In this document: positions 3,376-55,976 of the stretch, piece after piece
How the letters are laid out: each line of letters begins with the position of its first letter
Position numbering within the stretch: the first letter of the stretch is position 1
Assembly (NCBI GenBank): GCA_021234155.1
Contig: JAJEKV010000047.1
Span: 6,289,071-6,353,070 of the forward strand
DNA: 64,000 bases
Origin: Isoetes taiwanensis
Taxonomy: Eukaryota; Streptophyta; Lycopodiopsida; Isoetales; Isoetaceae
Direction: 5' to 3'
Notes under the pieces: model-generated
Seen by the model: the letters and a program-made list of their open reading frames with translations, nothing else
Database searches by the model: none
Told to the model about the DNA's origin: nothing
Translations under genes and position numbers: made by a program

Positions 3376-3700
3376 GTGATGTTCCAGGGAAATATACGCT
3401 ATAAATACGTATATTTCCGGGTCCATCACTATACAAGTCTACTTTCATAGACTTGTATACCTTAGGAAGTGGCATGGGTGCATATCTAAGTTGAATATAT
3501 AACTTAGATAACCTTAGGATAAGGCCCATTTTCCACATGGCCTTATCCTATTGGGCAACTGCCACACGGCCTTGACCCATTGGCGCCATGTGGCATCCCA
3601 TGTGGACCCTAACCTACATTAACCTAAACCCTAGACCTCTTTTCCCGCCCTAACACCCTGGGAACCTTCTTCGCACTCGAAACTCCGTTTCGAGCGTCGT
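3376..3700 (+). repeat. Start of the gypsy 3' LTR (right edge not resolved)
   Basis: The LTR is called from the polypurine tract directly upstream and the TG start (TGTGATGTTCCAGGG). A TATA-like stretch lies at about 3398-3412. I cannot place the CA end because the matching 5' LTR is outside the window, so the end coordinate is a guess bounded by the gene that starts at 3785. Confidence 0.55.
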
Positions 3701-3784
3701 TTGCTGTGGCATAGCCTAGTGCAGCAGCCCCCAGAGTGCGTGTACGATCTTGGAGTGAGCGCGGCTTCGACCACTTCGAGGACC

Positions 3785-8139: not shown

Positions 8140-8286
8140 GAATGCCAAAAAACAAGAAGTTAGTTTCAGTAATTTAAAATTTGAAACAACAAGAAGAAAT
8201 TTGAAATGCCGGATCAATACCTTACCCTGTGAGAGCTAATTACTGGCCCTGTTATTGAAAAACAATTTGGTAATTCAGAACCGAAA

Positions 8287-8642: not shown

Positions 8643-11052
8643 TTTTCTCTAATGACACAATTGTGGCTCTTCTTAAGTGCACATGCTATGGTAGTACCTG
8701 AGCCTGAGAAAGCACCGAGCACCCAATCTCCTTGACGTGAAAACATGTCAATGAGATGGTTGATAAGCTTCTGGGGCTTCTCCTAATGATTTACAATTCT
8801 GCCCTATGCACTTGGGTCTTGCAGCTTCTGCAACACTGCTGGGAACTCCAAAACATTGGAGAAGTCCGAGCAACCAGTAGTGTTAAAGTGCTCCACAGCC
8901 CTCTTGCCATCAAAGCTCCAGTAAGCAACGTGAAGGTATTCCACCTTGCTCAACAATCTGGAGGCTCCATCATAGTACTTGATGTTGGTTTTGTACCTAA
9001 AGACAAAAACAAGTCCAGTAAGTAAGAAGGACAAATGTCAAGAAGAAGTAAAGATATTTCACACTTCCTATTCCAGAATAAAAGAAAAAGACAAAAAGTA
9101 CTTCTTTTAGTAAAATACAACTAGAAGGTAAAAACACAAGCAAACAATAAAAAACAACTAAAAATTAAAAACACAACCAAACAACAAAAAGAACATATTC
9201 CAGAATATGAAACTTACCAAACCAATTTTTCGTAGCCCGCTTGATCGGAGGACCCAAAATACTTTTTGAAGCTCGCCTCAACGAGGCCAGCTTGTATACT
9301 TGAATGAAAAACAACCAGCCTCCAATGTTTAGCTGTTGTTATCTTCTGCAAGCCTTCGATGAAGTTGTTGAACTCAGTGTGCTTGAATGCTTAATCATCG
9401 TAACGGCTATCTTTAATTTTGAAGCCATAAGGAATATCAACAATGACAAGTGTAAAATTCTGTGGCTTCACACACCCCACTAGTTTTGTGCAGTCATCAT
9501 GTACGACAGAGAACAAATTGTTCTGATCGGTATGGTGAACTGTTCATAGTCCGAGTCTTCAACTTCCACCATCCTTCTCTCTACCAGATTTCTTTCTTCA
9601 CGGGTAAGCTTCACAAGGTGCATGAATCCCTCAGGAAGGTCCTTATTTTTCTTTTTGCTCTGAGGAGTGGTGGACAACGTTAGAAGAGGTATCTCAAAGA
9701 CGACAAACATTAACAAGCTTACCCAGCCATCAAAATTCGGAGAGTACTAAATGATGCACTCGTCAGAAGTAGCTATGGGGTAAAGTTCCTTGCACCTGTC
9801 CCAGCTGTCTACGTTTAGTTGTTCCATTAAACATGACTGGCAGGTAATTACATTCTTCTGGCTGCAACACAGAAGAAAAAACAGGTATGATTAAAAAACC
9901 AACAAGAACGTTCAAGAAAAACTTGCCAAACGTATTCAAGAATATGCCTTGTTAAACGCAAGTAAAAAAGTGTATTCTAGAATACACATTTGCAATTCAA
10001 AAGAAGCGGAGCATATTTGGGAATACCAAATGTGCTTTTCTAGCTCGAAGAAATGTGATAGAAAATATAACTCTAATCTTTCACGTTTCGAAGGTGTATT
10101 CCAGAATACATATCCGCACTCGAAGCACAACGGAGGTGTATTCTGGAATACATTTTCGCACTGTAAACAACGCAGACGTGTATTCCAGAATACACCTTGT
10201 CCAGTCTAACACACTCTTTAAACAACGTCAAGTTGCAAAAGAAACACACAATGAAGAAACTTACTTGTGCAACTCTTTAGACATCTCCTTTAACGTGAAC
10301 TCCTTGTTCACCACCTTTTGGAGAAGCCTTTCTAGCAGGTTGAAGTCCGTAAATCCCTGTAGCTCTCTCCAAACAATAATTGTCATTTCCTTTTTGGGGA
10401 CGTCGGAGCCTTTCTTTTTCTCTGAAACTTTTCCCTTGCTCTTCAGTTACCCGCACTCAAACATGGTAAAATTTTCATTTTGAAGCTCCCATATCTGCAG
10501 ACGACTTTCAATTAGTTTGTAACACGTATTTTGGAATACAAAACATAGGAATCAATGGACATACCTGGCCCTTTCTGAACACCAACTGAAACCAATTGTC
10601 ATGGCTAGTGAGTGAGGTTCTTTTATTGACCTCGTCGTACTTAAGGCCACACTCAATAGCACACGCTTCTTTAAGCTCCAACGAGTGTGCAGGCTTCTTC
10701 AGGTCGTCACCATACTTTTCTTTAAAAATGACGAACTCGCTGTGCATGAACCTGATCTTGTCAATAAAACTCATTTTGAGCTTGTACTCGTTATCCGCAT
10801 TGTGTGTGTGAGCCATTATTTTAGCTTCTTCATCAGTAAGTCCACAATAAATTGCACAGAGAATAGAAATGTATCTAGAATTATATTTCTCTTTGTACAG
10901 TTATCTTCTTGTCTTGAAGCTATGGTTTCCTCCCAAAACATAATGCGTATACGTGTAGGCATTTTCTCTGTCATACACTTGTGGGTCTGTGCACTATGTT
11001 CTGTCCACAAGCACGACAATGGGGGCCACGTGAGCGTTAGGGTTGCTCCTAA
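8643..11052 (-). pseudogene. ParB-DNA methyltransferase pseudogene, copy A, downstream part (rest at 23,932-24,612)
   Basis: Five exons read leftwards: 11,052-10,565 (continuing from 23,932), 10,494-10,265, 9861-9723, 9659-9218 and 8996 to about 8643. All junctions are GT-AG and the codon phase agrees at every join. The first exon continues a ParB-like domain with a G.H-type box (VLGGNHSFK, 10,916-10,942) followed by helices (GLTDEEAKIMAHTHN, then MSFIDKIRF). Exon 4 holds a GDC-like box (VVHDDCTKLV) and the catalytic motif IV, variant DIPYG (9424-9438). Exon 5 holds KPQKLINHLIDMF and AdoMet motif I, GDWVLGAFSGSGTT (8690-8713 for the core). The order IV then I is that of beta-class N6-adenine or N4-cytosine methyltransferases. 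It is a pseudogene: stops at 10,994, 10,901, 10,447 and 9747, a frame change near 9533, a stop near 9392 and two stops in exon 5. Similarity to copy B ends near 8660. Confidence 0.75.
9067..10540. repeat. Dispersed palindrome TATTCyrGAATA in the introns of methyltransferase copy A
   Basis: Copies of an 14-18-bp palindrome built on ATTCCAGAAT/ATTCTAGAAT/ATTCTGGAAT lie at 9067-9080, 9194-9209, 9970-9987, 10,094-10,110, 10,136-10,152, 10,178-10,195 and 10,526-10,540, with weaker ones near 9930. All fall in introns 1, 2 and 4, none in exons. The core TTCnnGAA also fits a heat-shock-element half-site pair. The four in intron 2 are followed by a CGCACTCGAAG-like phrase, so local duplication explains part of the cluster. 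Confidence 0.7.
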
Positions 11053-11055
11053 CAC

Positions 11056-11900
11056 TACAACAGTTTAGGGTGTTTTTCGTCGAGTATAGCGTCAATAAAA
11101 GTGACGCTATGTGTATTCTCAAAGCCCCTCTAACTGTCATATTATTGACGCTAAACGTGCTATACTTTGATGTCACATGGGCGTCAACTTTTGCGTCAAT
11201 TATTGCGTCAAGGCTACTTAACGCAAAAATGACATAATGACTACATTAGTGGCAATTGCATGGCGTGTTTGCGTCGATCTTATATCCAAGTTATTAAATA
11301 ACTGCGTCATATTTCTACCATATTAGTCTCCACACAATGACTACATTTGTGGCAATTGTATGGCATGTTTGTGTCAAGCTTAAATCCGTGTTATCCACTA
11401 ATTGCGTCATATTTTCTATCATATCAGTCTCGACACAATGATTATATTTGTGGCAATTGCATGGCAAGTCTTTGTCGAGCTTATGTCCAAGTTCTTCAAT
11501 ATTTGTGTCATGTTTTCTATCATATTAGTCTCGGCTATGCAACTAATTTGTTACACGATATTGGCATCCCTATTTTGCATAGGTTGACATCCTTTGCGTC
11601 GTATTTGTAACTCTCTTATAACATGTTTTATAGATTCTTGTTATGCAATTTATAATATGCCTAATTTATTTTTACAACGCGATTGTGACCTTTGGTTATA
11701 TCGTTATAAGAAACTAGTTCTATTTTTGTAATATTTGAGTGACAAAATTGTGTCAATTGTAAGTTATTTTTGTGGCATGTACATGTCAATTTTATGAGCA
11801 CGAATGATACCATTGTCTAATTTGTGTCCGAATTACATGTTGTCTTTGTGGCAATTCTATAGATTTTTGTCACTTTTATCTCTTCGTCCATCGATGGTTT
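11056..11900. repeat. Left subterminal repeat region of the CACTA element
   Basis: Repeats of GCGTCAA, GTGTCAA and GTGGCAATTGCATGGC occur every 20-110 bases, including three similar blocks of about 110 bp starting near 11,245, 11,345 and 11,448. The region is non-coding; short open frames here follow the repeat period. Confidence 0.8.
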
Positions 11901-12378
11901 TTTTTATCTTGAACAAATCTATATTTTAGATGCTTTTGTATTCATGTATGGAAAATTGTTTTTATTCAAGTCTATAGTTGCATCATGAGTATGAACGGTG
12001 GAAGAAAAAGTGAAAAAGAAGGTAATCGCACCAAGACTAATCACATCTTTGCAAAAAACAAAATTACTTGACAAAATAAAGAACATTATTTTGAATTCAA
12101 ATGAAAGATCATTATGCATTTAGAGTAGCATTAAGAAGTTATCTGTGAAAATAAATCTAAAAGTTTGAGCTTAACAATCACTTTCTATCGTGCATTTTTT
12201 GCATTCCAGATTATCGTCCTCAGTAAGAGACAGACCTAAGAGACGGACCTTTATCATTGGGCTCATTGCATTCTTCGTCTTCACTAACTTGCTTCAAAAA
12301 AGAGAACAAGAACTTGGTCAATTTTCAAATTGAGGTTATTTTGCCATGCAAAAAAGAACAAAAACAAATTAAGAACAC
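11901..12378. other. Non-coding CACTA interior left of the PIF/Harbinger insertion
   Basis: This is AT-rich sequence with no recognisable coding region, RNA gene or terminal repeat. It lies between the left subterminal repeats and the nested element. Confidence 0.6.
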
Positions 12379-13374
12379 TTAGGGTACCTTCGCACCCGCT
12401 GTTAAGTTAGGATTAAGTTAAATTTTTTTAACTGCCCAGTTAAATTTATAAAGACCCTTATGTTCGCACCAAGACTAAGTTAACTTTCCGTTAAGACTTT
12501 AACCTAACGAAAACTAGTTAAATCCTTTCAGACTAGAACAAGTTAGGTTATTTTTTTTTTAACTTAACGGCAAAATAAAAATGTGTTCGCACATGCTTTG
12601 GTTAAGTTAGTGCTAACTTAATGCTAACGACAATTTCTTCACATAGGTGCCTATTAAGTTAGTGTAACTTAATGCTAACGGCAATGTCTTCGCACATTCG
12701 TCCATTAGGTTTTTTTTTTAACTTAATGCTAACGGCAATACCTTCGCACATCCTCCGTTAAGTTTTATTTTTTTAACTTCTAGAATGCGTATGCTTCACT
12801 TTTGGTTAAACTAAGCCTTTAGTAACTATTATAGTGCATCCATTTGAATGTCAATTTGGTCCTAGCATATAACACCCACATACAAACACAAGCTGGACAA
12901 AAGTAGCCGTTAACCGAGCATTTACAAACAAGCTACAATTGAGTATGAGTATTCAATCATGTTTGCTATTCATTATGCCAATCTACTAGTCGTGTTCACA
13001 CAATTTTCACCTTATTCCACTTGTTTATGACATGAAATCTTAATTATGTACAATGGGGAGCTTTGGATTTTGAAATGAAATTCCCCCATTTGCATATGAT
13101 ATATCGATTGAGAAGCAAGTCACCTGCTGCCAGAGTAATAAGAAATTTACAAAATTGTGCGGAGGTGCGAAAACAGAGACATATGTAAATGGCTCCTCAA
13201 TTGAAACAATAGCTAACAGAATGGCGGCATGTAAGGTATATAATTTCCAATCTGCAAAAACCATATAAGCCATGCTTAACTCATTTTCTTAGTGCTGTGT
13301 ACGTGCATGTTGCCAGGTGCAATCTGATGAAGATTTAACTGCTCAGATATCCAACATTCCATCATTGAAGATTC

Positions 13375-14036
13375 TTTGAATGTGCGTCAGAAATTGATTG
13401 GCCAGATCCATATGGAGTGCGTGAAGACTCAAAATTAAAAGATACTAGAGCCTACATGAACTTTATTGGCATTAAAGGAGATTCAGTTGCATCAAGTTGT
13501 GCTCCACACACAACATTCTTTCAGCAGAGACTAAAGTAATGTTCTGAGGCTGACTGGGCATAGGTGAGCAAGTTTGGAAGTATTTATTTTGCTAAATGCT
13601 TATGGCTTTACATGTCTTTAATTACAAGGCTTGGTCTTATTGATCTGAAAGGGATGTCTCGTTGACAAAAACTAGCTTTTTGGATCAATATTTATAATGC
13701 TTCTATGATGCATGTAAGTTTAGCGAGTCTATGATGTCTGTGAAGTCAGGCCTTTCTTGAGTATGGAGTTGTAGGTAATGTTCGTAAAGTATTAACACTT
13801 GCTCGAAAGGTAAGCAAAAAATATATTTTGCATACATGGCACACATTACTAGAAGGATATGTTCTAAGAAATATGAACTTCCAGGCAACGTTAAATGTTG
13901 GGGGACATATGCTAAATCCTTTAGCTATTGAACATGTGATAATGCGTCTTTCCCCGAGCAGCTTCTCACATTGCTTTTGTGACAACAATCTTGAATCCGT
14001 TTCTGTTTACAGACTTGTACAAATGAGAGAGTTGAA
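13375..14036 (+). pseudogene. DUF547-family gene fragment captured inside the PIF/Harbinger element
   Basis: Exon pieces match the plant DUF547 family (function unclear; members often carry an N-terminal leucine-zipper region). They are DPYG with the following acidic stretch and a QQRLK end (13,375-13,539); LITRLGLIDLKGM then QKLAFWINIYNASMMH ending at a GTAAGT donor (about 13,606-13,713); AFLEYGVV (about 13,749-13,772) between AG and GT; and ATLNVGGHMLNPLAIEHVIMRL after a CCAG acceptor (from 13,885). The order is that of the family. The in-frame TGA before QKLAF (near 13,665) and the lack of a complete domain mark it as a fragment. The first and last exons of a normal DUF547 gene are missing. 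Confidence 0.75.
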
Positions 14037-14414
14037 AAACAAGTGAGTTGCATAACAATAACGAAGATAAAGCAACAGCAAAAAATATGCACAGTGACAG
14101 GAAATATGGCATTTAGTTAATGGGTACAACCACTACATGGTTCTTTTTTGAGATTGCATTTTACAGCCAGAATCTCTTTCGGAAAGATGTCCTAACAGAC
14201 GTTGGATGGTTACCAAAACCATGAATGCTTTGATTATCAGATCAACATTCTTTGGAGCCTTTGGATTTCTGTGAGAGCAAATGATATTCTTCACCTTAAT
14301 CTTTCCATTGCACAGAATTCCATGATCGAGCAACTGAAAAAGAGTTGGATGGCACTGTGAATCATGGCCAACATTCAGACGTAAATTTCATACAAGCATC
14401 TGTTCTTACAACTA

Positions 14415-15942
14415 GTGAAGGATCTTCGCTGCAGGCGTGCTACACCTGATTCAGTAGATTGTACCAGATTGCATGTGCAAGAAAAGAGGGAGAGATTACT
14501 AGCAGAAGTAGGCCACTCATTCTATCTCCTGGGATTCAATGAAATGGGTGAGGTTGTATCGGAATGCTGGGCTTATGAAGAGGAAAAGACTTATGATGAG
14601 CTTCAAATCTCTATAAATGACATTTTTAACATGCAAAAACTTTATTGTGTTTGCAATTTGCAATAGAATGTCAACGAATTGCAAAATTAATTTTACTTCC
14701 TTGCTTTCTATAATTTTCTCCAGATTTGAATTCATATGTTTTGCCTACAATGGCTTCTGTTTGGTAATAGCCTAGTATTTGTAGAGGGCAATGCATGATC
14801 AAAGTTCTTGTCATGCACTCTGGTTCCCTAGCAATGTTTAATGCCTTAATTGACAATAAGCCTCACTTTCCACCAGAGTGGCAGCACGGAACAAGCTGCT
14901 AGCCAAGTGGTATTTGAGCAGAATACGAAGAAGATTGCACTGCAATTGGTATTGCATCATATAAACTTATGGAAGCATCCCTTTGGCAAAGCATTGGCTA
15001 TAGCTGCTACCAATATGCTAAGCTATGTTTTTACAGTAAAAGCCCCAATTACTTGCACTCAATTACTTACTGCAGCTAGACAGTCCCCGAAACAGATTCA
15101 TCAAGAGTGCGAGCTCTAGTTCTACACATCTATTTCTAGCAATGAATTCACAAACGCATGCAATGGATCTGCCTACAACCAAATGCATATAAAGTTTGAT
15201 TCTGTAATGTATGCTGACCTGTTCACCAAGATCTGGATCTGTACCCTCCACATCATCTGCCATAGCTTGACTGTGTTTAACTTCACGGGTTTCCGTTTTC
15301 TTCAAACATGGGGTGCCTCTGAATCGTTGTTGATTGGAACACTTTGCACACAATTGCATCCAGTTGTAGGTAGAACATAATGTGTATTAATGTACTTCTT
15401 TTCAGATATGTGTTATACCTAGCTATTGCATCTTTTTTGGGAATAGAAAAGCTTCGGCAATCCATTCCAGCATGGCTTTTGTTAGAGCAAGGGTTATTGA
15501 AGAAGTATAACTGGAAGGTATAACAAAAAAGAATTTCTATTTTGTTTGGCTCATAAAATGCAGATATTACGTCGCATTTTTTGGTGAGGAATTTTACATT
15601 GTGTATTGTTTCTCTCTGTAGTGGGAAGAAAGAGTTATATCTCAAAATAAATTGAGCAGGAATTGCCATGATAGTGATGGTAACCCATGTGACCAGATAT
15701 CGGATTTTAATCCAGCCAGCTTGTTATTGAATGGAGTAGGCTGGTCTGTACCACAATCTCAACTTGGAAAATGGACCAAGCCCGCACCAATAGTGCAGAA
15801 AAATACCAGCAGTGGGAAGTCAGTGTCTGTTGCATCCATAACTTCCAATGATGAACCATCTCGTTCCCTTACAGCCATGATGGTATTTGAATGGTCAGAA
15901 TTAAAAAACTGGCATCTATATAAATTGGAAAGAACAAGCTGA
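14415..15942 (+). pseudogene. Exon-like pieces of one or more unrecognised genes inside the PIF/Harbinger element
   Basis: Several stretches read like real protein between plausible splice sites: AEVGHSFYLLGFNEMGEVV...ECWAYEEEKTYDEL (14,505-14,610), VVFEQNTKKIALQLVLHHIN...AIAATNMLSYVF (14,908-15,034), YVLYLAIASFLGIEKLRQSI...LKKYNWK (about 15,406-15,521) and WEERVISQNKL...NPASLLLNGVGWSVPQSQ (about 15,622-15,760, open to 15,942). The last two join in frame across an intron with a GTATAAC donor and a CTGTAG acceptor. I do not recognise the protein. These may be further exons of a single captured gene or of two. There is no evidence that they are expressed. Confidence 0.45.
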
Positions 15943-16668
15943 GTTTGTATGGTCTCCTCCTTATGTGCAACAAGACTTTAGGGCCCCCATTCAAAACAGA
16001 CTTTATGACTGGATGCTCAAAACATGAAGAGTTCCAGGATGCTCAAAACATGAAGAGTTCCAGACAGATAAAAATCGGAGAGATCATTATGGCATATAAT
16101 GGGACAAATGAATGGGATTTAAAGAATGGGATTTAAATGAATGGGATAAAGAATGGGATCTTGTTGTCTTACAGAATGAATGGGATTTAAAGAATGGGAC
16201 AAAGAATGGGATTTAAATAATGCCCTTTAAACACTCAGTTCGCCTCAGTTCTATTTTTAGAGCTCCATAAGCACAGGGATTTAGAATTTTTTATTTGCTA
16301 GGACACTCCTTGGCTCTTTATCTCCAAGTCAATAGTAAGGAGCCTAACTGCGTTGAAATGCAACTCCGGCATTCTAATTTATCTGCTTGAATTTGCAGTA
16401 TCAGAAAAGAAAACATAGAGGCATTTCCCAAGACTGACATGCTTCCCCATTTCATAAAATTTAGTTTCAAACAAAACTAACCCGCTGGGATCCTCATCCT
16501 CGTCGTCTTGTTCTTGTTCTGTTGCTATGGCCCAACCAGCTATTCCGCCAGCTCCAGCTATGGCCCGACATGGCCCGACGACAGGCCCTCGACCTGCTCC
16601 ACGATTTCGAGCTCGAGTTCTACTACTATCCGCCGTTTCGACAACAGAGCCAACAACCACGTCCGTTA

Positions 16669-16704
16669 AAAATTAAAGTGACCTTGAAAGGTCACTTTAA
16701 TTTT
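16669..16704. repeat. Perfect 17-bp hairpin with a 2-base loop
   Basis: AAAATTAAAGTGACCTT is followed by GA and then its exact complement. It lies 216 bases inside the right end of the PIF/Harbinger element. It could be a small insertion footprint or a structural part of the element. Confidence 0.85.
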
Positions 16705-16923
16705 CAGTGTAATTTTGATTTTCAGTTAACTTTGGGTTTAATTTATTAACTTAGGATAAATTAGTGTGAAGCCAATTTAGGTTAACACTTTTAGGTTAAA
16801 AAAGTTAACGGAATGCTAAATAAAAAAATTAATGTAAACCTAACCTAACTAGTGGTGTGAAAGCAAATGCAGTTAAAATCCTAACGGAATCCTAACTTAA
16901 CGGCGGGTGCGAAGGTACCCTTA

Positions 16924-19900
16924 AATCATTATTATCTTAATTGATTTCTAAATATCAATATCCTTTCAATCAATAGCCACATCACTGTCCTGTTTAGATA
17001 TAGGAGTAGAACAAATTTAATGGGGCCATATTAATGCAGTAGAAAGAAAAAACTGCACAAACAACTGCCAGAACTTATCTGCAAGAGCCAAAAAGGGAGA
17101 GCTTGAAATGGCAGGACCTATTCAACTTGCACCACAATAAGCCCCGTTAGAAAGGGTCTGCTCTGATTATTTCTTCCTTCACAGAGCCACTACTTCTGAG
17201 ATTCAGCGTATTGCAAGGAAGCATTTGCACACTAAAACATTGTAATCTGAAGAAAAAGAAAAGAAAAGCTTATCAAGGACTTCGAGCAAAAAGACAACAA
17301 AATCAAAGATAGTGTTACCAGAGGCGCCATTAAATTGTTATAAAAGAAACCAGAAGCCGCAAAAAGCCGGACGCAAAAGCTGGAAGCCGCAGAAGCCAGA
17401 CGCAATCTGAAGCTCTGCAACCTGTGAGGGTTTGATATAAAATGATTTTCATTCATGCAAATGAGGAAGCAACGCAAGAATCCTTTTATTAATCCATACC
17501 TATAAGTTGGAAGAAGCATCTACAGCAGAACCCACTAACACACCCTGTGCAGGAGCAGCAGTCTCTTTCTTCTCCTTCCCATCCCTCTTCGAACTTTTAT
17601 CTTATATTTACATTCAAGATCTGCTGTCTTTTAATGACCTTCCTTATTCCATTGGACTGCAGGACAGTTCTTTCAACTGAAACCCCGCCAATAAGCTTGT
17701 TAAGAGACAAGAAAATAGAGCAAAAATACATATATAAACAATAGATGGTGCCCACGGTCTTCCAGGCATAGCATTACAACTTCTAGACCCTTTCTTCTGC
17801 CAATAGAGGACGTATTTTGCAAAGGATTTTCCAATCTTACTTACAGTTTTTATGCCTGGTTCGAAAGCAGAAGAAAATGTGGGCATTGTGGATCTCTTGG
17901 GACTGCTTCAAAAACGCCGCAGAATCAGCAAAAATATGAGAAAAAACATTACCACAATGCCAATTTTGAACGAAATAGAGATTCTTATTACCTGACCGTA
18001 GTTTTCTTGGCACAACAGGCAGCTCCTCCATCTCCGGCTCACCAATCCGCTATGTTCCATTTCCTGTTCTGTGATATTGGCATAAAGCTTACCTGAGAAT
18101 GCTCATCTGTTGGCGACAGCCTGCTCGACTCTGCTCGGCTCGCTCGACTCTGCGCGGCCTGTGGGTTTGAAAGACTATCGGTGGTTTGCAAAGCGGCGAA
18201 GGGGGGAAGGGTAACGTGGAAACAACTGGCCAATGGGAAGATAAGACCGAGATCAAAATCTGGGCCCTTCATCTTAGTTCATCTCAGCCGTTGGATCGGA
18301 AGAAGTAGCTTATATTGGCTTAGCCATAAAACGCCAACACTGGACCATTAAATATCCATTACGCATCCTAGCGCACTGATTTTAGCTTGTTGAATACCTA
18401 GGCAAGCTATTCCTTAAGAGAAAACTGGACTGGAATGTTCCATCTTGTAATTGCATATATAACCAATATGGGAGATATGGTAATGTAGGCCTTAAACTAT
18501 AAAATTTGCCAAACCATAGTGAAGCTCAAGACCTTTAGATATAGCAAACCATATGAATACCGTCGAATTTGGTTTAAAAAGGAACTCAACGGTTTAAATC
18601 AAATTTCATGGTTTGCTACCAACCAACTATTCCTTAATCATAACTATTCATGGTTCAAAAATTCGGAGCATTCACCTGAAAAATTCAGCCATCCTTGAAA
18701 AGTTCCGACAAAAAATAGCGTGATATGATTTTTTCTAACATCAAACGGAGGGCGGCATTTGTCCCAGTTGGGTGTGCACCTAAATTCGACCCATGCGGAT
18801 ACACCGATATCATGCATGATAAAACCATAATTTCACTTTCACGTGTGTGACAAATCTTTTTATTTTGCCACGTGACAAAACTTAATGTTTGTAACCAATG
18901 ATGTGTGTGCCAATAAGCTGCCAGGATGTAGTGATGACATGGCAAAAATGGCATCATGATCTGACAAATGTTATTTTTGCAATCTTCACGAGATGAGTGG
19001 GAAAAGTGGAAATTTGCAAATGTTGACATGGAACATGATGATGCGGCACTCCAAGTGGTGACATGTCATGCCAAGTAAACAAGGCCAACCAAAAAAGTAC
19101 AACCTTGGACTTTCATGGGTGGTGTAGCAACGTTTGGACGATAGCAAAGGATATGGATGATTGTGGACATGGTGATTAAGCATTTTTGTTAGAAATATGA
19201 CAACTTTTAACGTCTCGTAAAAGAATTGGCATGAGAATTTACGGGCACTAAAAAAAACTACTTGTCTCACTAAAAAAAAAAAACCTTTTTTCAAAAAAAT
19301 TGGCCCAATCATTTTCTTAATCATCATGTGGCATGCCACAACATCCAAAGAAAATCCATGTCACCACGGAGAAATATCTTTTCTTAAAAAGTTGCAAAAC
19401 TGTCGAAGCAAATTGTTCATGTTTACACCCCTTCATATTTTGCCACCTCGCCACTCATCTTTGTCCCCTAACCATACTCATGCCATGTCATCTCCTACAA
19501 TTTTTGCAAATAGTCACCTTCTCAAAAGGAAAGAAGTTTGTTTGTTTTTTAATCCAGACAGTAATACGTGTGCTGCACTTCCTTTTTTGGGTCCCATAGG
19601 TTGTTGGTCTTCGTGGACGATAAAAATCATTCAATTCAATTCGATTCTTTTGATGCCACCTCATTATCTCTAGAGAGGGGGCATTAGTGTACGGCCTCAT
19701 AGAGAGGGGCCATTAGCGTACGACCTCATGGAGGTATGCAACCGGGATGCTGTATATCCCTTTTTGTTTGAATGTTATGAAGCGCTACAAGATGATGAAC
19801 TACTTAAAGATGCAAATCCGAGACTTGAACCAGAGTATCAATGAAGACAGCGTATGATGAGGAGCATATATTGTTGTTATATTTTTGTGCATTAGCTTTT

Positions 19901-21428
19901 CTTCCGACCTCTCCTTCACTAGGAAGGGGCTACGATGAATGTCACCGAGGCACTGCAACTCTTGCAAACGACCATTGGATTGTCAATTCCCATGGATATT
20001 CTCAGGATCCAACTATCATTGGCCGCCCCGACATTCCATGACAAGATGTATTGAGGTCGCCCATGTTGAAAATTTGCCTAAGGCCAAAATATGCCAAGTC
20101 ATCACTTGATATGCCACCGCATCCAAGAAAGTGCCATTCATATGACAAATTCATGCATCAGCATTAGCATTAGACAAACACAAAAAAATTGTCACTGCTC
20201 CTTAGCATTTTATTAGCTCTTTATATTTGAATTGTATGTAGCATAAAAGCATTGCCTAGATATGCGTTAACATCAACCACATTAAGGTTTCCCAAGTGCT
20301 TTGTCATTCAGCCAGTGCTTTGTCATTGGGCAACCAAGTTGACACCCTTCCCCAAGTCAAACAAGCCCAAAACTTTGTGAGGCTTCCTCACGAGTAGGGA
20401 TAGGCCAGACCCCAAAGGACAGGCCCCAAAGAAGTTCCCGAGGCAGCCTTTCGTGGCAGCGCTCCTCCGGGGCTCGTATATTAATGCCCGCCCTCATGGA
20501 GCTCTTTTCCCCTATTGGACTGTTGAATTCTCCATTCAAGGACTCTGCTTTGTGCAGGTTCAAAAAAATCCAAGATCGGTCCAGAAGAACTTACCAAGCC
20601 ACCAAGCTTCGGCGGGCGACTGAGTAGAAACCCAAGTGTTTTGTTGTTAGGGCAGTACAAAGGCTTCGAAATGGCGATTCGACTTCGTCATATCATCCGG
20701 AATGGCGAAATTACCCTAGGGACCAAGTTAGACGGTCTGTTTTAAAGAAAGAAACAGGAACGCCCTAACGACCAGTATTCCACAGGCACGACCTAAGACA
20801 ATTGACTACGAGTGTGTTAGACATAAGCTCTTTTGGCACTTCTTGCAGAAGGGGTAGTCTTCTGCCTAGGAAAGTTGGTCCCCATGGTAATGTCGATGTT
20901 TTGCGACCATTGGCATAGCCCATTCACAGTTCTGAAGTGGGGGAGTTGCACGTCCGTCGACATGGCCTTCAAAAGAGGACTTTTGGGGCAAGCTGCTTCC
21001 GGGGGGTTTTAAGGATCCATCTTCTAATGCCAACACCTTCCCTCTACGTGATGACACGATGCAATCTAACTAGGATATAGCCTCCGAAATGTAAACCCTA
21101 TGTATTGCTAGATTCTTGAAGGTTTATGTTTTGGAGGTTGAGTTTTGGTCATTTGTGCTTGGGACATGGCCAGAAGTTGCAGTTGGAAACACGAAGCATT
21201 GAGACCTGACGGAATGGAATTTGGATCTGTCCTCCACCCAATGTAGCAATTGGAAGTGAAGAGCTGCTTTTGCAGCAGTAGGAAGATATTGTTTGGGATC
21301 ATTCTGGCTGGCTGATAGATCCAAACTCCATTTTTTCAGTTGTCATGGCTCTTCATGTATTCTTAGAGATGGCGCACTGAGTTATCCATGAAAACGACCA
21401 CGTGGGTTGAGCATGTGTTGAGCCACGT
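16924..21428. other. Non-coding CACTA interior between the PIF/Harbinger insertion and the minisatellite
   Basis: About 4.5 kb with no gene I can support. Open frames are short and on both strands. The only recognisable item is a LINE 3' tail at 19,588-19,650. A GC-richer stretch at 20,340-21,060 has open frames without similarity that I can name. Confidence 0.5.
19588..19650 (+). repeat. Solo LINE 3' end with a microsatellite tail
   Basis: GGGTCCCATAGG, a short spacer and GTGGACGATAAAA match the last 40 bases of the three GC-rich LINEs in this window (ends at about 44,855, 49,031 and 61,805). They are followed by an ATTCA-type repeat. It is an extreme 5' truncation in which only the tail was copied. 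Confidence 0.75.
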
Positions 21429-22595
21429 TTGAGCCTAGGTGGCATGTTGGAGCCTAGGTGGCATGTTTGAGACACCGTGGCATGTTGGAACCTAGGTGGC
21501 ATGTTTGAGCCACCTTGGCATGTTGGAGCCTAGGTGGCATGTTGGAGCCCACGTGGCATGTTGGAGCCCACGTGGCATGATTCAGCCACCTTGGCATGGT
21601 TAAGCCTAGGTGGCATGTTTGGGCAACCTTGGCATGCTGGAGCCTAGGTGGCATGTTGGGAGCGCACGTGGCATGTTTGAGCCACCTTGGCATGTTGGAG
21701 CCTAGGTGGCATGCTTGAGCCACCTTGGCATGTTGGAGCCTAGGTGGCATGTTGGAGCCCACGTGGCATGTTTGAGCCACCTTGGCATGTTGGAGCCTAG
21801 GTGGCATGTTGGAGCCTAGGTGGCGTGTTGGAGCCCACGTGGCATGTTTGAGCCACCTTGGCATGTTGGAGCCTAGGTGGCATGTTGGAGCCCGCATGGC
21901 ATGTTTGAGCCACCTTGGCATGTTGGAGCCTAGGTGGCATGTAGCAGCCCACATGGCATGTTTGAGCCACCTTGGCATGTTGGAGCCTAGGTGGCATGTA
22001 GCAGCCCACGTGGCATGTTTGAGCCACCTTGGCATGTTGGAGCCTATGTGGCAAGTAGAAGCTTGCGTGGCATGTTTGAGCCACCTTGGCATGTTGGAGC
22101 CTAGGTGGCATGTTGGAGCCCAGCGTGGCATGATTGAGCCACCTTGGCATGTTTGAGCCACCTTGGCATGTTGGAGCCTAGGTGGCATGTTGAACCCCAC
22201 GTAGCATGTTTGAGCCACTTTGGCATGTTTGAGTCTAGGTGGCATGTTGGTGCCTAGGTGGCATGCTTGAGCCACCTTGGCATCTTTGAGCCTAGGTGGC
22301 ATGTTGGAGCCTAGGTGGCATGTTTGAGCCACCTTGACATGTTGGAGCCTAGGCGGCATGTAGGAGCCAGCTTGGCATGTTTGAGCCACCTTGTCATGTT
22401 TGAGCCTAAGTGGCATGTTGGAGCTTATGTGGCATGTTTGAGGCACGTTGGCATGTTGGGGCCTAGGAGGCATATTGGAGACCACGTGGCATGTTTGAGC
22501 CAGGTGGCATGTAGGAACCCGCATGGCATGTTTGAGCCACCTCGGCATGTTTGGGCCTAAGTGGAATGTTGGTGCCTAGGTGGCATGCTTGAGTC
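21429..22595. repeat. Minisatellite: 19-bp unit in 57-bp higher-order repeats, about 61 copies
   Basis: The basic unit is GGCATGTTGGAGCCTAGGT. Three variants recur in order (ending GCCTAGGT, GCCCACGT and GCCACCTT), giving a 57-bp higher-order unit with about 20 repeats. Because 57 is a multiple of three and the units lack stops in several frames, long open frames appear on both strands (364 codons on the minus strand). These are a by-product of the period. Confidence 0.95.
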
Positions 22596-22667
22596 GAAGG
22601 TGGGCAGGAGGTCGAAGGTGGCAAGAAAAACATTACGACACATGCCTATCATTCTCGTTTACGTCAT

Positions 22668-23154
22668 ATGTTTCGATCTCCATACCTTGCCTCATTTATG
22701 GATTATCATGCAAAGAACCGTAGTAACGATGGAAAAATGAGGATGCATGCAGATGGACAGTCATGGAAAAATATTGAGGAAAGGTGGCCACAATTTAAAT
22801 TCGAGTCTCGCAACATTAGACTTGGACTAGGACTAGATGGAATATGCCCCTTGGGATCTATGTCGTCAAAACATAGTGTGTGGCCAATAGTTGTTGGGAA
22901 CTGCAATATTCCACCGTGGATGGCTACCAAACCTGGTCATATCATGTTGACGTTGATTGTCTCTTCAACGAGATGAGATTGGAAGTAGTGGGCAACTAAG
23001 CGATAATGGCATTAGTGATGACTATATTGAAGATGAAGAAGTTCCAAACTTTGGTTCAGGTTTTAATTTGCTTACAAATTTGCGCTTACATTTGGATGAT
23101 GATGAGTTGGACGACATTGAGCATGATATTGAAGACCAATTCAATGCTTTATGA
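22668..23154 (+). pseudogene. CACTA transposase (TNP2/Transposase_21) fragment
   Basis: The segment MRMHADGQSWKNIEERWPQF, then NIRLGLGLDGICPLG, VWPIVVGNCNIPPWM and HIMLTLI is the standard core of TNP2-type transposases (HPADG..W, NVRLGL.TDGF.P.G, SCWPV......LPPWM, LTLIVPG). It covers about 100 residues of a protein that is normally 700-1000. Acidic sequence (DDDELDDIEHDIEDQF) continues to a stop at 23,154 in another frame. It lies 1 kb inside the right end of the CACTA element and is presumably what is left of that element's own transposase gene, with most of it replaced by the minisatellite and other DNA. Confidence 0.85.
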
Positions 23155-23931
23155 CAATTCATATTGAATATTTTATAAAAGTTTGCTCTAAGTTGATTTT
23201 CTTGCAATTTGATTAGGCTATACAAGACCTAAGAACATACATGTATAAATACATAAATATTGGTTGTAATGTTTATGTAGTACCACTAATGTTATTTATA
23301 CATTTATCATATTACCATTAAAACCATGCTAGTCTAATTAAAAACTATAAAATGTTTATTTGCAAGGTTGTTTCCCTCATACTAGCTAGTGGCACTTTTG
23401 TGTCAAACTTAGCCCTTTTTGTGTCAAGATATCTATGTAATTATACTTGACAATGTCGCTACATTGACACTGTTTTGACACAATCACAAGATATAAGTGC
23501 CACAATCTATAACAAAAAATTGACGTAAAATTGCCGTTACATTTGATACTACAAAATGATGCAAACGTTCTACAAAAGGTGACAAGAAACTATCACAAAA
23601 TGTGACACAAATGCGTAACAAAATCGACCCAAAACTGTAGAACTGGCGATGTTATAGTGGGAACAAACCTATTGCTACATTTACTTAAATTATGTCACAA
23701 TCTTGTTACAATAAACGATGTAATCATCATTATAAAAGCTAACAAAAAAATTCCAAAATTTTGACATATATGTGTTATAAGAATGACGTTGTTATTGACA
23801 CAATTGTATTGACACAAGTTCTGACACAATCAAATTAATTTGTGTCACTTTCAAGCTTCTGACACAAATCTGACAAATCTGAGAAGGTAGTGACGCAGGG
23901 GTTGACGCAAAAACCCTATCCTCTTGTAATT
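23155..23931. repeat. Right subterminal repeat region of the CACTA element
   Basis: From about 23,390 onward TTGACAC, TGACACAA and TTGACGC recur, in inverse orientation to the left end. The terminus is at 23,931. A TTATAGTG at 23,656-23,663 could be an internal, older CACTA end. Confidence 0.75.
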
Positions 23932-24612
23932 CTATCGTTCAGTTTCCTCAAGTGATCAGCATAAATTTTTCGAACCTGTAGTGGCCTTTCTCCTGCTTCA
24001 TTCTTTGGGGGCAGCTTCATATATGTCACCGGCAGATAAATAACTCCTTGCACAAACTTCAGCCGGTTTATTTCTTCCATTCTTTTTGTCGTCTTATCCA
24101 CTTTCTTTTCTCTGATAGCCACACCTGGTGTTTTGCCCTTGCCCTTTTGCTTTTTAGGGATTTCTTTTTGAGTTTCTGCCATAGCTAATTCAATTGTCTT
24201 CTTCTTCTTTGGCTCCTTAGCAGTGATAGTACCTTTTGGCCTCTTCCGTTTCACAACTTGTTCTCCAGCGGACTCTTCTGAACTTTTTGTGTCATCGTCT
24301 TCAGAAGAATCACCTTCTTGCTCCTGCTCCGACTCACTTGTAGGAAAAGTCTTCACTTTGACTCTTTCGAATCCTATCAATTAGATGCGAAAGCCTTTCC
24401 TTGTGCGTGTAGTGAGTAATGAACTTGTACAAAGGTCAGGCTGCGCCCTAGACAGTTTGAAGTAGGCTTCATCCAGAGCAATGAAAGCTTGAGACGTTTT
24501 AAAGGATATCCTTCCACCTTGTCCAGACTCGTCAGCAGTCTCGAAAATGTCCCTTATCGGTCCCATTGCAATCGAACTCGCTTGCAGCGTACCTTTTATT
24601 TCCTGGGCTTCT
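23932..24612 (-). pseudogene. ParB-DNA methyltransferase pseudogene, copy A, upstream part
   Basis: This is the 5' side of the exon that resumes at 11,052. An acceptor (TTTGCAG at 24,613-24,619) marks the exon start; earlier exons must lie to the right but I could not find them. It encodes an unrecognised N-terminal stretch, one stop (24,381-24,383), an acidic Ser/Glu-rich segment (SESEQEQEGDSSEDDD), basic clusters that look like nuclear localisation signals (KRKRPKG, PKKKK) and then the start of a ParB-like domain (GVIYLPVTYMKLPP, RPLQVRKI, HLRKLNDR). The last codon is split: AG at 23,933-23,932 continues with G at 11,048 once the CACTA element and its CTA duplication are discounted, and the frame then stays correct. 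It is transcribed leftwards. Confidence 0.7.
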
Positions 24613-52153: not shown

Positions 52154-53537
52154 TCAAAGGTCCAAGATATACTCGTCATCACCCTTCTTGCTTGTCTCAG
52201 GCTCTTCTTTTGTTGTCGACTGATGCTTGTCCGGTGAAGTAACCCGTTCTTCTTCAGCTTTGTCTTCTAGATTAACAACTGGAGCAACTTCTTTTAGCTC
52301 TACAAAATCAACCTCTTCGTCAACAGAGCTCGTCAGAGGTGGCTGAATCTCTGATGATGTCATCTTGGCATAATCAGATGAGGATTTGGTGCCTAGCTCT
52401 TGATTCTCATCAGGAAGGTTTGGTAAGGCGGTAATCTCATCTTAATAAAGTTCCACGGACCTCCTTGTCTATGTCCACGACCACACAATTTCGGCCCTTC
52501 TTGAGTGCACAAGCAATGGTGGTACGAGCGAGAACGCATCAAGCACCCAATCTCACGGGCGAAAACATGTCAATGAGATGGTTGATGAGTTTTGGGGATT
52601 CTGATAGTGGTTCACAATTCATACGTACTTTCGGGTCTTCAAAACTCGTAACAACTGCAGGAAACTCTAAAACATTTGAGAAGTCGGTGCGGCGGAAGTG
52701 TTGAAATGCTCCATGGTCCTCTTGCCATGAAGCTCCAAAGAACTAACGTCGCGGATATTCCACTTTGCTTAACAGACTGGGGCCTCCACCATGATATGTT
52801 ATATTCGTTTTGTACCTTCAAGAGAAAGGGCATTGGTCAGCAACTAAAAGAAAATACCAAGTAGTGTATTCCGAGATACAAAGCGTGCGGACTAAGTTCT
52901 CCTAACCCGGCTTGGTCGAGGAGATCCAAAGTGATTTTGAAGTGGCTTCAACAAGACCAGCTTGCATACGGGGAAAATACCACTAACCGCCAAATGTCTA
53001 GTCTGTAGTGATCTTCATTAAGCCTTTGATAAATTCATTGAAATTAGCATGCTTAAAGGGGCGTCATCGTGTCGGTATCTTTAATCTTGAAGCCGTAGGG
53101 AATGTCGGCAATGATTAAGCGTGAAATCTTGTGGCTTCACACTCATTACAAGCTTGGTGCAGTCCCCATGTACAATTGAGTAAAGATTGTTTTGGTCGAA
53201 TAAAGTAAACGTTTCATAGTCCGTTTTACGCGACCTCTATCAACCGACGCTACGCCAAAGTTCTTTCTTCCCGAGCAATCCTTACCAGGTGCATGAAACC
53301 TTCTGGTAGGTCCTTGTTTTTCTTCTTACTCTGCAAAACCACAAAATAATTAGAACATTTACAAATCTACGCTACCTAAACGCCCAAAGCAGGCTTACCT
53401 AGCCTTCAAAATTTGGAGCGTACTGAACAATTCTCTCGTCAGAGGTAGCAATAGGATAAAGCTCCTTGCACCGTTCCCATGTTTGCACATTCAATTGTTC
53501 CATCAAACATGTTTGACATGTAATGACGTTCTTCTGG
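52154..53537 (-). pseudogene. ParB-DNA methyltransferase pseudogene, copy B (C-terminal half only)
   Basis: Three exons correspond one-to-one with exons 3-5 of copy A: 53,537-53,399 (QKNVITCQTCLMEQLNVQTW), 53,330 to about 52,925 (KNKDLPEGFMHL, HGDCTKLV, motif IV as DIPYG at 53,092-53,106) and 52,815-52,154 (NVLEFPAVV, KLINHLIDMF, motif I remnant DWVLDAFS at 52,529-52,552, then GRNCVVVDIDKE). Splice signals are kept. Copy B keeps the motif I aspartate that copy A lost, while copy A keeps the GSGTT that copy B lost. Beyond the catalytic domain copy B has an acidic tail ending GDDEYILDL and a stop at 52,154, which copy A lacks. Frame changes occur near 53,120 and 52,520 and there are stops in the last exon. 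Nothing like exons 1-2 was found upstream, so it is 5'-truncated. Confidence 0.75.
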
Positions 53538-55976
53538 CTGCAACATCCAAACCAAGAATTACATCAGGGACACGTCTACAGAAGAACTTTATCGCAATCA
53601 CAAAACAACACCACATCAAACAAGAAAAGCCAAAGTCTGGATTTGGGGCAATTATCTTCAGTGCATATATTGTTTGTGACACGGACAATCTTATCAAGTG
53701 TTTCTCCTATGATGATTACATATGGGCCTCTATATCTCTTTATCTTGACATCTTGAACTTCTTCCTAACGCTTCTGCAACTCCTCAGTGGAATGGATTCA
53801 AATTGAGAGGATCTTCAATACAACTGGAATAAGATATGTGGACTGAAAGAACTGTTTCATTTTACCGATTTGGCAAGCAAGCAAGTACTTCTAAGTGTTA
53901 TTGGTTCATTTGCATAGTTATGTGTCCACAATAAGATCTGAACTCAAGACTTCTTTGGATCTAAATTAATAGATCTGATGACAATGACGCTCTTGAACCA
54001 CCCATGTACTCAAAGGTAGTTTTAGAAGCTTGAGATAACTTTTCAAGATAGCATATTATACATTTCGTTATTATATGACTATCATTATTGGATAGGTGAT
54101 ATTTTGAAGCAGGGCTGAGTGGCCTTTCTAGAAAAGCAGGTTTGAGTGGCATATCTTTGCAGCAGGAAACACTGGAGCATTGCAGTATTGTTTGGCCTCT
54201 CATTTATTCTATATGTTTCATAGTGACGAAATGTAAGTATGCCAATCAGAGTCAAAGCTTTTTGGTTTGTTTCATAGAGAACACTACAATGGGTTTGTCC
54301 CGTGACATCATTAGATTTTCCAGAAGAACCATGTCTTAACGTAATTCTGAGAAGGTGAAATTTTGTTTTTTCTGTTACTAAACTCTATAATTACCAACAT
54401 TCATTCCTTGCTTCTGTATTTATCTTTACATACTATTGATTATATATTTAATTCCCTATATTTCCTACATCCAAATTTTGAATGCCTTCTGAAATGATAA
54501 CGCTAGCACAGCATGACAATCTGCAAAGTCCATTATCTATAATGGAGCAAAAGCAGGCCACATACAATAGAACTCTAACGTGAAATTTTTCTGCAGATGT
54601 ACGCGCTCTGTTATGCTTTACACAAGGCAAAGGAACACAAAGTTGGGTTCATAGCTTCATGCTACGGAGCAAAAGCAACTGAATAGGTAAAGATATGCCC
54701 TTTGTATTTGTATTTGCATGCTATTATTCTAAAAATGATTCTTTTGATATCTATCATAAATAGTCAAACTGCAGTAAACACTATAATTTGCGGTACTATG
54801 GATGAGGCACTTTTCATGTGGTTAAAACTATCAATGATGATTCGCAATGTCCTGTTAAATAGTCATCATAGCTCTCTCTTTGACAATGCCGCTGCTGGTT
54901 CACGTGTTCCAGTAATTTCATATTACAGTCCTCTCTTTCATAGGAGGAAAGCCATGTTGGGGAGAAAGGTGAAATGGTTATAGCAATTGTGCCTGCAACT
55001 AGCCAAATATTTTTCATGCAGTAACGGCTTTGGATTTTTAAAGGTTCTTTTTATATTCCTCTTTTAAGCTTTCTTGGTAGGTCAAGAAGCATGCCGTAAG
55101 TAGTTGACAGGCATGGAGGAGGAAGAAACCTTGATTAAGATCATTTGTAGTGTATAAGAAAGTCGTTCAATAAACTTTACATCAGAATGTTGCATTTGCA
55201 GATTAGTAGCTACCTGTGGATTTAAAAGGTAATAGCAAAATCTACTATTGAATTTTATTTGGTGTTTCAACCTTAGATACATGCAGCACTTAATAGTTCA
55301 AATGGTGCATCTATCGCCATCAGCCATGTGCATTTAATCGACTGGCAGTGAAGATATGGCTTTATGCCCCTCCATTTATGGGCTTGGATGTCGTTCTAGC
55401 TGCCATGATTCATGCCTTCGACATCATCTCTTTCTTTTTGATATGTTGCTTCTTAGAGATACTGCCTCAGAAATTGTGAGTTTCAAGTTTTAGAAACTTT
55501 GTAATTGTTGAGTTGGACCTCATTATTCAAAGGAGTTTCAATAGATTAACTCTTTATATAGATATTCTCATTTCCGTTCTTTATGGAGTTGTTTTAGGTG
55601 AGATGCCTTGAAAAACAATGAGATATCATTTCAAGTCGGCAATGCATAAATTCTCATTGCACCTTCTAAATTGAATACAAAACCTTCAACATCTGGGTTG
55701 GTCTTAAAGCCACAAAAATGCATTTATGGTTTTGTGGCAATTTCAATATATACATCTCCATAGTTGGCTAGCAGGAGTATATGTTGTACACTGTCATGGT
55801 ACCACACATTTCTCCACTTCAAGGCAAATGGAAAGGAATGAGTTGGTCTTAGAGCCACAGAAACACCTCCAAGGTGAAAAGAACATATCCAAGATTTATT
55901 GGCAATTTGTTAAAATGTTTGGCTAGGAGGAGTTTCAAAGGTGTAGTTATACATTTGCCCAAGTGGAAGTCACCAC
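53538..55976. other. Intergenic DNA, nothing recognised
   Basis: AT-rich sequence with scattered short open frames on both strands and no domain or RNA structure that I can identify. Confidence 0.5.

Follow-up and report, generated by a model that had tools for sequence, protein, structure and literature searches.

The question raised by this locus is whether a gene on the minus strand of an Isoetes taiwanensis window, the whole stretch of 64,000 nucleotides that was analysed, is a functioning plant fusion of a ParB-like domain with a bacterial-style DNA methyltransferase, as an earlier note had proposed from the sequence, and if not, what it represents.

A disrupted fusion gene and a second, decayed copy

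From N- to C-terminus, the first copy of the gene (copy 1) comprises an acidic/basic N-terminal region, a ParB/sulfiredoxin-fold domain, a linker and a beta-class N6_N4 methyltransferase. Both the strand and this order, as proposed in the earlier note, are borne out by alignments to single proteins; pieces of the ParB and methyltransferase halves align in order to the single protein P0001 (E 2.9e-64), which also places motif IV and motif I in one gene. The features of the window are as follows.

23927..24380, minus strand: exon 1, first part; acidic/basic stretch followed by the beginning of the ParB-like domain (VIYLPV ... RPLQVRK ... KLNDRI); open frame
23927..23929, no strand: one copy of a putative target-site duplication, TTA, read in the sequence; also the last bases of the first part of exon 1
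11053-23926, minus strand: CACTA-like DNA transposon inside the ParB exon (exon 1)
11050..11052, no strand: the other copy of the putative target-site duplication, TTA, read in the sequence
10565..11049, minus strand: exon 1, second part; GGNHS box of ParB with the helices after it; in-frame stops at 10996 and 10903
10564-10495, minus strand: intron before exon 2; 70 bp, GT-AG, phases match
10264..10494, minus strand: exon 2; final portion of the ParB helical region, plus linker; stop at 10449; 3' limit set by the alignment
9723..9863, minus strand: exon 3; linker; stop at 9749; 5' limit set by the alignment
9722-9660 and 9217-8997, minus strand: GT-AG introns with matching phases, splice sites read in the sequence
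9218..9659, minus strand: exon 4; linker and N-terminal methyltransferase half with motif IV DIPYG; stop at 9393; frame change between 9522 and 9513
8654..8996, minus strand: exon 5; C-terminal methyltransferase half with motif X (KPQKLI) and motif I (FSGSGTT); stops at 8806 and 8785
52483..53545, minus strand: copy 2; decayed exons for linker and methyltransferase, sharing at least two intron positions with copy 1

The first part of exon 1 aligns to P0031 from Chara (E 3.1e-6) and weakly to P0017 (E 0.005), while the second part matches P0019 with 41.8% identity in a tblastn search (E 1.7e-38). The proposed structure of five exons with matching phases holds for the three GT-AG introns but not for the 13-kb gap, whose reading as an intron was ruled out in favour of a CACTA-like insertion, given the TTA on both sides and flanking exon parts that continue in frame. 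Transposons of the CACTA (En/Spm) type have CACTA termini and produce a 3-bp target duplication. The 12.9-kb insertion has at one end an intact CACTACAA terminus, read on the plus strand from 11053, and the opposite end is without its outermost bases; near each end there is a cluster of GTGTCA/GCGTCA-type motifs, and the similarity of the ends, which had been picked by eye beforehand, was matched by 6 of 5000 random 40-mer pairs. No transposase was identified within the insertion.

Copy 1 is a dead pseudogene, because its frame carries the seven stops marked above and a frame change, and its ParB exon is split by the insertion; the idea that this copy is a working gene is thus not supported. 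Editing of stop codons in RNA, known from organelles, was considered as an excuse for the broken frames and set aside. Copy 2 shares the donor region of exon 3 with copy 1, and the DNA upstream of it yielded no ParB part. The two copies differ at 17, 8 and 42% of first, second and third codon positions, respectively, and since these differences are mainly at third positions, selection at the protein level must have acted on the methyltransferase for a long time.

Relatives and the properties of the two domains

Relatives were found as six gene models taken as Ginkgo (the Gb_ prefix of their EukProt names presumably denotes that genus), in Ceratopteris, Adiantum and Chara, and on contigs of a cyanobacterial MAG. 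The contigs are probably DNA of the fern Azolla, because they were found in a Trichormus MAG and are placed next to Ceratopteris in the tree; mosses as the source of the ENA proteins were dropped in favour of Azolla. The ParB and methyltransferase parts lie within one gene with short introns in 8 of 9 of these probable fern contigs, and contig L028 has the ParB part and no methyltransferase match. Metagenome ORFs that might have passed for ParB-only proteins were ruled out as such, as they end at a splice site. A spliced plant gene joining a ParB-like domain to a beta-class methyltransferase, the central proposal of the earlier note, is supported, with relatives in ferns, Chara and the models taken as Ginkgo.

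The Pfam comparison sustained this proposal for one half of the protein and failed, by sequence, for the other. The methyltransferase of copy 1 matches N6_N4_Mtase (PF01555) with E 2.7e-11 and 44.3 bits against a cut-off of 26.7, the same profile is matched by all five sequences of alignment A7 (the listed one with 57.1 bits), and the aligned motif order IV-X-I is that of the beta class. For the ParB part of the window there is a sub-threshold match to DUF6551 (E 0.015, 15.2-15.3 bits, cut-off 26.8), and ParB_N has no match in the window or the relatives scanned. The ParB-like fold was instead recovered from a structure model of the Ceratopteris relative P0019 (mean pLDDT 77.6), which shows this relative with a predicted ParB/Noc fold of the ParB/sulfiredoxin superfamily. 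A resemblance to SANTA/PH in the structure comparison is weak, and the model of P0001 (mean pLDDT 54) supports no claim. A PDB sequence search with alignment A3 returned one match that is not credible (E 0.49), scans of IMG/VR with alignments A3 and A1 gave 32 and 90 pattern matches and no relatives, and Pfam found only weak DUF4062 (E 0.012) and Gag_MA (E 0.22) matches in the six N-terminal pieces. CTP-dependent ParB proteins carry a GERR nucleotide box. In alignment A3 the corresponding ParB box reads GG(S/C/N/T/D)H(S/C), from which the arginines of the CTP-binding proteins are absent, and loading driven by CTP may therefore fail.

With respect to the target base, N6-methyladenine is favoured over N4-methylcytosine by the resemblances of the methyltransferase sequence, because motif IV reads DIPY and not SPPY and the PDB matches at E <= 0.01 that are named for their base are adenine enzymes. 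DIPYG is present in both window copies and in the eight contigs with a methyltransferase. In the three Ginkgo-type models that extend over motif IV it is replaced by DIPHG or DISQG, so that these proteins may be inactive; the SPPY motif of 4mC writers of the N4CMT type is absent from all of these. Among nine PDB matches at E <= 0.01, the three with a base in their names (MboIIA and two DpnA) are adenine-specific, and we take CcrM and RsrI, also among the matches, to be adenine enzymes. Counting against adenine, a looser search also brought in three N4-cytosine enzymes (E 0.35-0.91).

Probable transposon setting, origin and competing explanations

A divergent neighbour gene is present in all five contigs with enough upstream DNA, and it encodes a DUF7869 protein in the four tested. 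The domain is without function in Pfam, and we call this partner transposase-like from its setting between terminal inverted repeats (TIRs). Related inverted repeats flank the gene pair in the probable fern contigs, where the genes are open. The three elements with both ends (L020, L026 and L027) span 6.0-7.8 kb; their own ends match at E 1e-3 in L026 and L027, and in L020 only with 78.8% over 33 bases (E 0.082). A scan of these three found no consistent target duplication, and because it allowed shifts, a 6-base match in L020 may be due to chance. The intact relatives, which are probably of fern origin, reside in what look like cut-and-paste transposons, and the gene may accordingly be a jumping one whose product puts chemical marks on DNA. 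Within the window, there is no convincing DUF7869 remnant (best E 0.064), the contig TIR was not found (the best candidate has 14 mismatches of 34), and the plus-strand ORFs at 3635-6379 gave nothing above the Pfam cut-off.

The reading we prefer, with a probability of about 0.6, is that the window gene is a dead copy of a streptophyte ParB-like/methyltransferase family which a TIR DNA transposon carries along as an accessory gene in at least one fern lineage. Attachment to DNA, probably within the element, would fall to the ParB-fold domain together with its helical, HTH-like extension, and the beta-class domain would use S-adenosylmethionine to methylate nearby bases, most likely at adenine N6; such a mark could help the element escape silencing, or time its transcription or transposition. 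That the copies in the window derive from an element of this kind is inferred, as are the protein's presence in the nucleus, its binding to DNA, the sites and the base that it targets, and the benefit to the element. If true, transposon-carried DNA methyltransferases of bacterial type would extend from algae to land plants, as a ParB-methyltransferase fusion kept under strong selection across copies, and would mark out specific loci at which to seek genuine adenine or cytosine-N4 methylation in plants, reports of which are questioned in the available portion of PMC12695648. A wider idea, speculative and doubtful at present, is that DNA transposons of land plants bring along an epigenetic writer of their own. 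This ParB-fold protein would load onto the DNA of the element and deposit N6-methyladenine (or N4-methylcytosine) there, a mark unused by the host 5mC machinery, by which the element would shield or time itself. The gene would persist only in lineages with swimming sperm, perhaps having been recruited there for the paternal genome.

The gene might instead belong to the host, as an ancient domesticated DNA methyltransferase that the plant uses to mark its whole genome, in gametes for instance, and of which transposons later captured copies. Constraint among the contig copies is indeed very strong, with 55% of third positions differing compared to 10.5% of ParB residues, below the 27% of residues in the DUF7869 partner; no match in the relative searches bears a flowering-plant or conifer name, most being without an organism name; and Chara, Ceratopteris, Adiantum and Ginkgo, all the organisms named or inferred among the matches, have swimming sperm, which counts for a host role. 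Also listed for this reading is that Marchantia sperm uses another methyltransferase, according to the accessible text of PMC8885841 and PMC8566409. Several copies in the Gb_ models, the contigs and the window nonetheless argue against a host gene, as does the transposase-like partner in 5 of 5 contigs able to show one, with inverted repeats around. The reading of an isolated host gene loses ground for the same reason, the probable fern contigs having the gene between inverted repeats beside a transposase-like gene, and also through the algal transposon precedents described below; a host gene appears unlikely. That motif IV and motif I are unrelated pieces of different genes could be suggested by a window copy that is broken and spread over 16 kb, but this is refuted by the alignment of all pieces in order to single proteins and by relatives that hold them in one gene, and its probability is negligible.

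As to origin, the phage fusions to which the gene had been likened in the earlier note have the same two-domain order, with 284 records covering at least 80% of one such protein, and the match to phrog_67, the best PHROG profile, begins at position 109 of 743, leaving room for a domain ahead. Both observations suit a horizontal transfer of a phage or bacterial fusion that was kept as such. The phylogeny gave a divided answer, in that the best trees place the plant methyltransferases outside the phage-fusion group (support 98/96 and 99/96), yet a tree joining the two is not rejected by the AU test (p 0.336 and 0.158). Against transfer, the plant profile scores 10 of 12 stand-alone enzymes above all 8 fusions (the tenth by 0.2 bits, with b008 and bP0032 below one fusion), an outcome favoured by the choice of most stand-alone enzymes for their likeness to plant proteins; furthermore, plant and phage ParB halves give a weak profile match (probability 4.9%), and the Ceratopteris half has no phage match at E 10. 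Such a transfer is quite improbable. A better candidate, though one we place somewhat short of even odds, is a convergent fusion, in which the union of a ParB-fold domain with a stand-alone beta-class methyltransferase arose in a eukaryotic transposon, independently of phages. The AU test does not separate it from transfer (p 0.158), and the sampling is uneven; because this reading concerns origin, it is compatible with the transposon-accessory explanation.

Comparison with known systems

The accessible text of a 2025 paper (PMC12477816) describes Sola1-1_Ec32 of the brown alga Ectocarpus, a DNA transposon with a ParB-methyltransferase accessory gene on the strand opposite the transposase, and cites beside it ParB-methyltransferases of green and red algal transposons. 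From these cases the fusion has eukaryotic precedents and is of a kind already known. A land-plant form, of which the earlier note knew no described case, was not found in the literature searched; Walker et al. 2025, Iyer et al. 2011/2016 and the Bostrychia paper may mention some. Compared by description, the plant and algal transposon proteins alike combine ParB and methyltransferase in one chain, and in the probable fern contigs the gene is paired with a transposase-like gene, here DUF7869, between TIRs, a pairing that was looked for and not found in the window. Unlike Sola1-1_Ec32, which measures 21.5 kb, the contig elements are 6.0-7.8 kb and their partner is a DUF7869 protein.

Phage and bacterial fusions (a Criblamydia plasmid; Blautia, Gardnerella, Vibrio, Gordonia and Streptococcus phages; L009-L016) similarly have the ParB-like domain first and the methyltransferase, which belongs to the same class, second, but they total 404-444 residues, their ParB part being short and lacking the long helical extension, and their methyltransferases group apart from those of plants in the best trees, not significantly. 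The adenine-N6 methyltransferases of CcrM type provide the best solved match (6pbd, E 2.5e-11, over most of the domain) and the best NCBIfam match, the latter at 45.7-50.8 bits against a cut-off of 830; the plant domain differs in its fusion to ParB and in sharing 23-30% identity with two aligned CcrM-like proteins. The 4mC writers MpDN4MT1a/b of Marchantia and N4CMT of bdelloids are likewise bacterial-type methyltransferases in eukaryotes, and are set apart by description: the Marchantia enzyme is without extra domains in the available part of PMC8885841, and motif IV of bdelloid N4CMT is SPPY in that of PMC11065753, whereas the plant protein is a ParB fusion bearing DIPY.

The window gene and the element inserted into it

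On the minus strand, 24380-8654 holds what remains of a single spliced gene. Its exon pieces lie in the order set out in the earlier note, a ParB-like domain followed by a methyltransferase bearing DIPYG and FSGSGTT, and Pfam matches the latter to N6_N4_Mtase (E 2.7e-11), as that note had expected.

Features of the two window copies
24380-23927, minus: acidic/basic stretch running into the first part of the ParB-like domain
11053-23926: CACTA-like insert in the ParB exon
11049-10565, minus: remainder of the ParB-like domain with the GGNHS box
10494-10264, minus: linker exon
about 9863-9723, minus: linker exon
9659-9218, minus: first exon of the beta-class methyltransferase, DIPYG
8996-8654, minus: second exon of the beta-class methyltransferase, FSGSGTT
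about 53545-52483: second decayed copy, linker and methyltransferase exons, two or more introns at positions in common with the first copy

Three of the gaps proposed as introns are GT-AG introns with matching phases (10564-10495, 9722-9660 and 9217-8997), but the large gap in the ParB exon is not an intron; its best reading is the insertion of a CACTA-like transposon. Relatives read through this site uninterrupted, both in unspliced metagenome ORFs and in six metagenome contigs (L020, L021, L023, L024, L025 and L027); TTA flanks the insert on both sides, and the exon reading frame runs on from one flank into the other. The length across the site matches that of Ceratopteris, the Ginkgo-type models and the metagenome ORFs; two further relatives (P0028 and P0029) are one residue longer and the Adiantum protein P0030 lacks the stretch. 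One end of the insert is an intact CACTACAA terminus and the other a matching repeat without its outermost bases; the similarity of these ends, which were picked by eye before testing, is equalled by 6 of 5000 random 40-mer pairs from the window. GTGTCA-type motifs cluster near both ends, and a minisatellite of about 61 copies of a 19-bp unit occupies 21427-22587 inside the insert.

Formerly taken for a working gene, this copy is dead, bearing the insertion, seven in-frame stops (10996, 10903, 10449, 9749, 9393, 8806 and 8785) and a switch of reading frame between 9522 and 9513. The second copy is not a retrocopy, since at least two of its introns lie at places common to both. Mismatches between the copies in the aligned blocks amount to 39 of 229 at first, 19 of 228 at second and 93 of 224 at third codon positions, a pattern that requires prolonged protein-level selection preceding the decay of both. 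No link of either copy to a transposon was seen inside the window.

Just 3' of the gene and on the same strand, a 292-codon open stretch (7284-8159, minus) shows a BAH-like pattern by eye, with no Pfam match above cut-off. Apparent remains of a Ty3/Gypsy-type retroelement (reverse transcriptase end and integrase, by eye) lie at the window start (293-2499, plus), followed at 3635-6379, plus, by four open stretches of 206-248 codons in a row that resemble a decayed large protein. This row is transposase-like by eye, with a late HYIH...NTQGMEKSH stretch; no Pfam family reached its cut-off here, and contigs L020-L028 hold nothing that resembles it convincingly (best E 0.24). A GC-rich LINE-like element occurs twice, at 42112-44856, where a reverse transcriptase domain is present, and at 46285-49028, the copies being 83% identical.

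Relatives and the probable source of the metagenome contigs

Searching 5.8 billion proteins with the window exons joined together yielded three hits, each a EukProt model whose Gb_ name we take to denote Ginkgo biloba; six such models occur across the hit lists (37443, 10123, 17912, 03516, 14868 and 14004). A composite query built from the Gb_ hits returned 32 hits, including Ceratopteris richardii KP509_1Z236600, Adiantum nelumboides L7F22_015107, Chara braunii CBR_g36777 and many metagenome proteins with no organism named; one further hit, P0032, was rejected from the family as an ordinary bacterial-type methyltransferase. A profile search gave 37 hits, apparently all of this family and most unnamed, with Chara absent despite its presence in the query alignment. 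In the Adiantum protein the ParB-like part is joined to a LURP-one-related domain (E 5.8e-9) and not to a methyltransferase, probably through a false join or exon capture. The named or inferred hosts, Chara, Ceratopteris, Adiantum and Ginkgo, all have swimming sperm, and no conifer or flowering-plant name occurs among the mostly unnamed hits, a pattern that could reflect chance or search reach.

One scan of GTDB contigs with the ParB-part alignment A3 found nine loci (L020-L028), every one in a single MAG named Trichormus; NCBI lists Trichormus azollae under that genus. The metagenome proteins would thus derive from Azolla, and the contigs (run ERR2144891) would be fern DNA contaminating a MAG of the Azolla cyanobiont, because the MAG is Trichormus, the contig genes are spliced, one contig additionally has what looks like a Ty3-type retroelement, and the metagenome ParB parts fall on both sides of Ceratopteris in a tree with open forks and long branches. 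The Azolla metagenome paper gives the study as PRJEB19522, to which run ERR2144891 may belong. The GTDB MAG 'uncultured Trichormus', kept as a species genome, appears to include fern-host contigs that carry nine or more copies of a single transposon-linked gene family.

The gene pair and candidate element ends in the contigs

In eight of the nine contigs, methyltransferase exons, all with DIPYG, closely follow ParB on its own strand; in L028 no methyltransferase match was found within more than 2 kb downstream of the linker match. Six contigs (L020, L021, L023, L024, L025 and L027) keep an open large ParB ORF, which is broken in the other three (L022, L026 and L028), and in L020, L023 and L024 the ParB segment and all three searched methyltransferase segments are open. 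Over pairs of copies matching the open-frame patterns, non-matching copies being left out, differences at first, second and third codon positions are 11/5/55% for ParB (6 copies), 16/8/56% (4 copies), 12/5/54% (6) and 19/13/52% (6, including an 11-residue remnant of L026) for the methyltransferase segments, and 20/14/47% for the neighbouring gene (4 copies).

This neighbour, a divergent opposite-strand gene of about 870-900 codons, occurs in each of the five contigs that extend 3 kb or more upstream (L020, L021, L025, L026 and L027); the other four have too little sequence on that side to show it. Its four open copies match DUF7869 in Pfam (E 1.8e-52 to 3.7e-51), presumably a transposase; in L026 the gene is broken and was recognised from 74-76% DNA identity. 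Candidate ends lie to the left of the gene pair in five contigs and to its right in five. Of the 25 left/right pairings, 8 agree at E 1e-3 in inverted orientation and none in direct orientation. Three elements, with lengths of 7724, 6044 and 7805 bp, have both ends; an element's own ends are alike at 94% over 34 bases in L026, at 81% over 37 in L027 and at only 79% over 33 (E 0.082) in L020. Their flanks showed no consistent target duplication. The unit is read as a TIR transposon carrying a transposase-like gene and the ParB-methyltransferase gene back to back.

Origin and known counterparts

A comparison with phage fusions, as the earlier note proposed, was made in trees of 21 and of 25 methyltransferases; in both, the plant sequences cluster together, apart from the phage ParB-fusion group. 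The AU test does not reject a joint grouping (p 0.336 and 0.158). The bacterial sample is uneven, having been picked by likeness to the plant proteins or one fusion. An independent fusion is somewhat favoured. That the gene product methylates, what it would target and what the element would gain from this are inferences. The earlier note knew of no described plant gene of this kind, which holds for land forms in the literature searched, whose coverage missed key works and is weak evidence of absence. ParB-methyltransferase genes in transposons are a known kind: a 2025 paper (PMC12477816) reports one in the brown-algal transposon Sola1-1_Ec32 of Ectocarpus and cites green and red algal ones.
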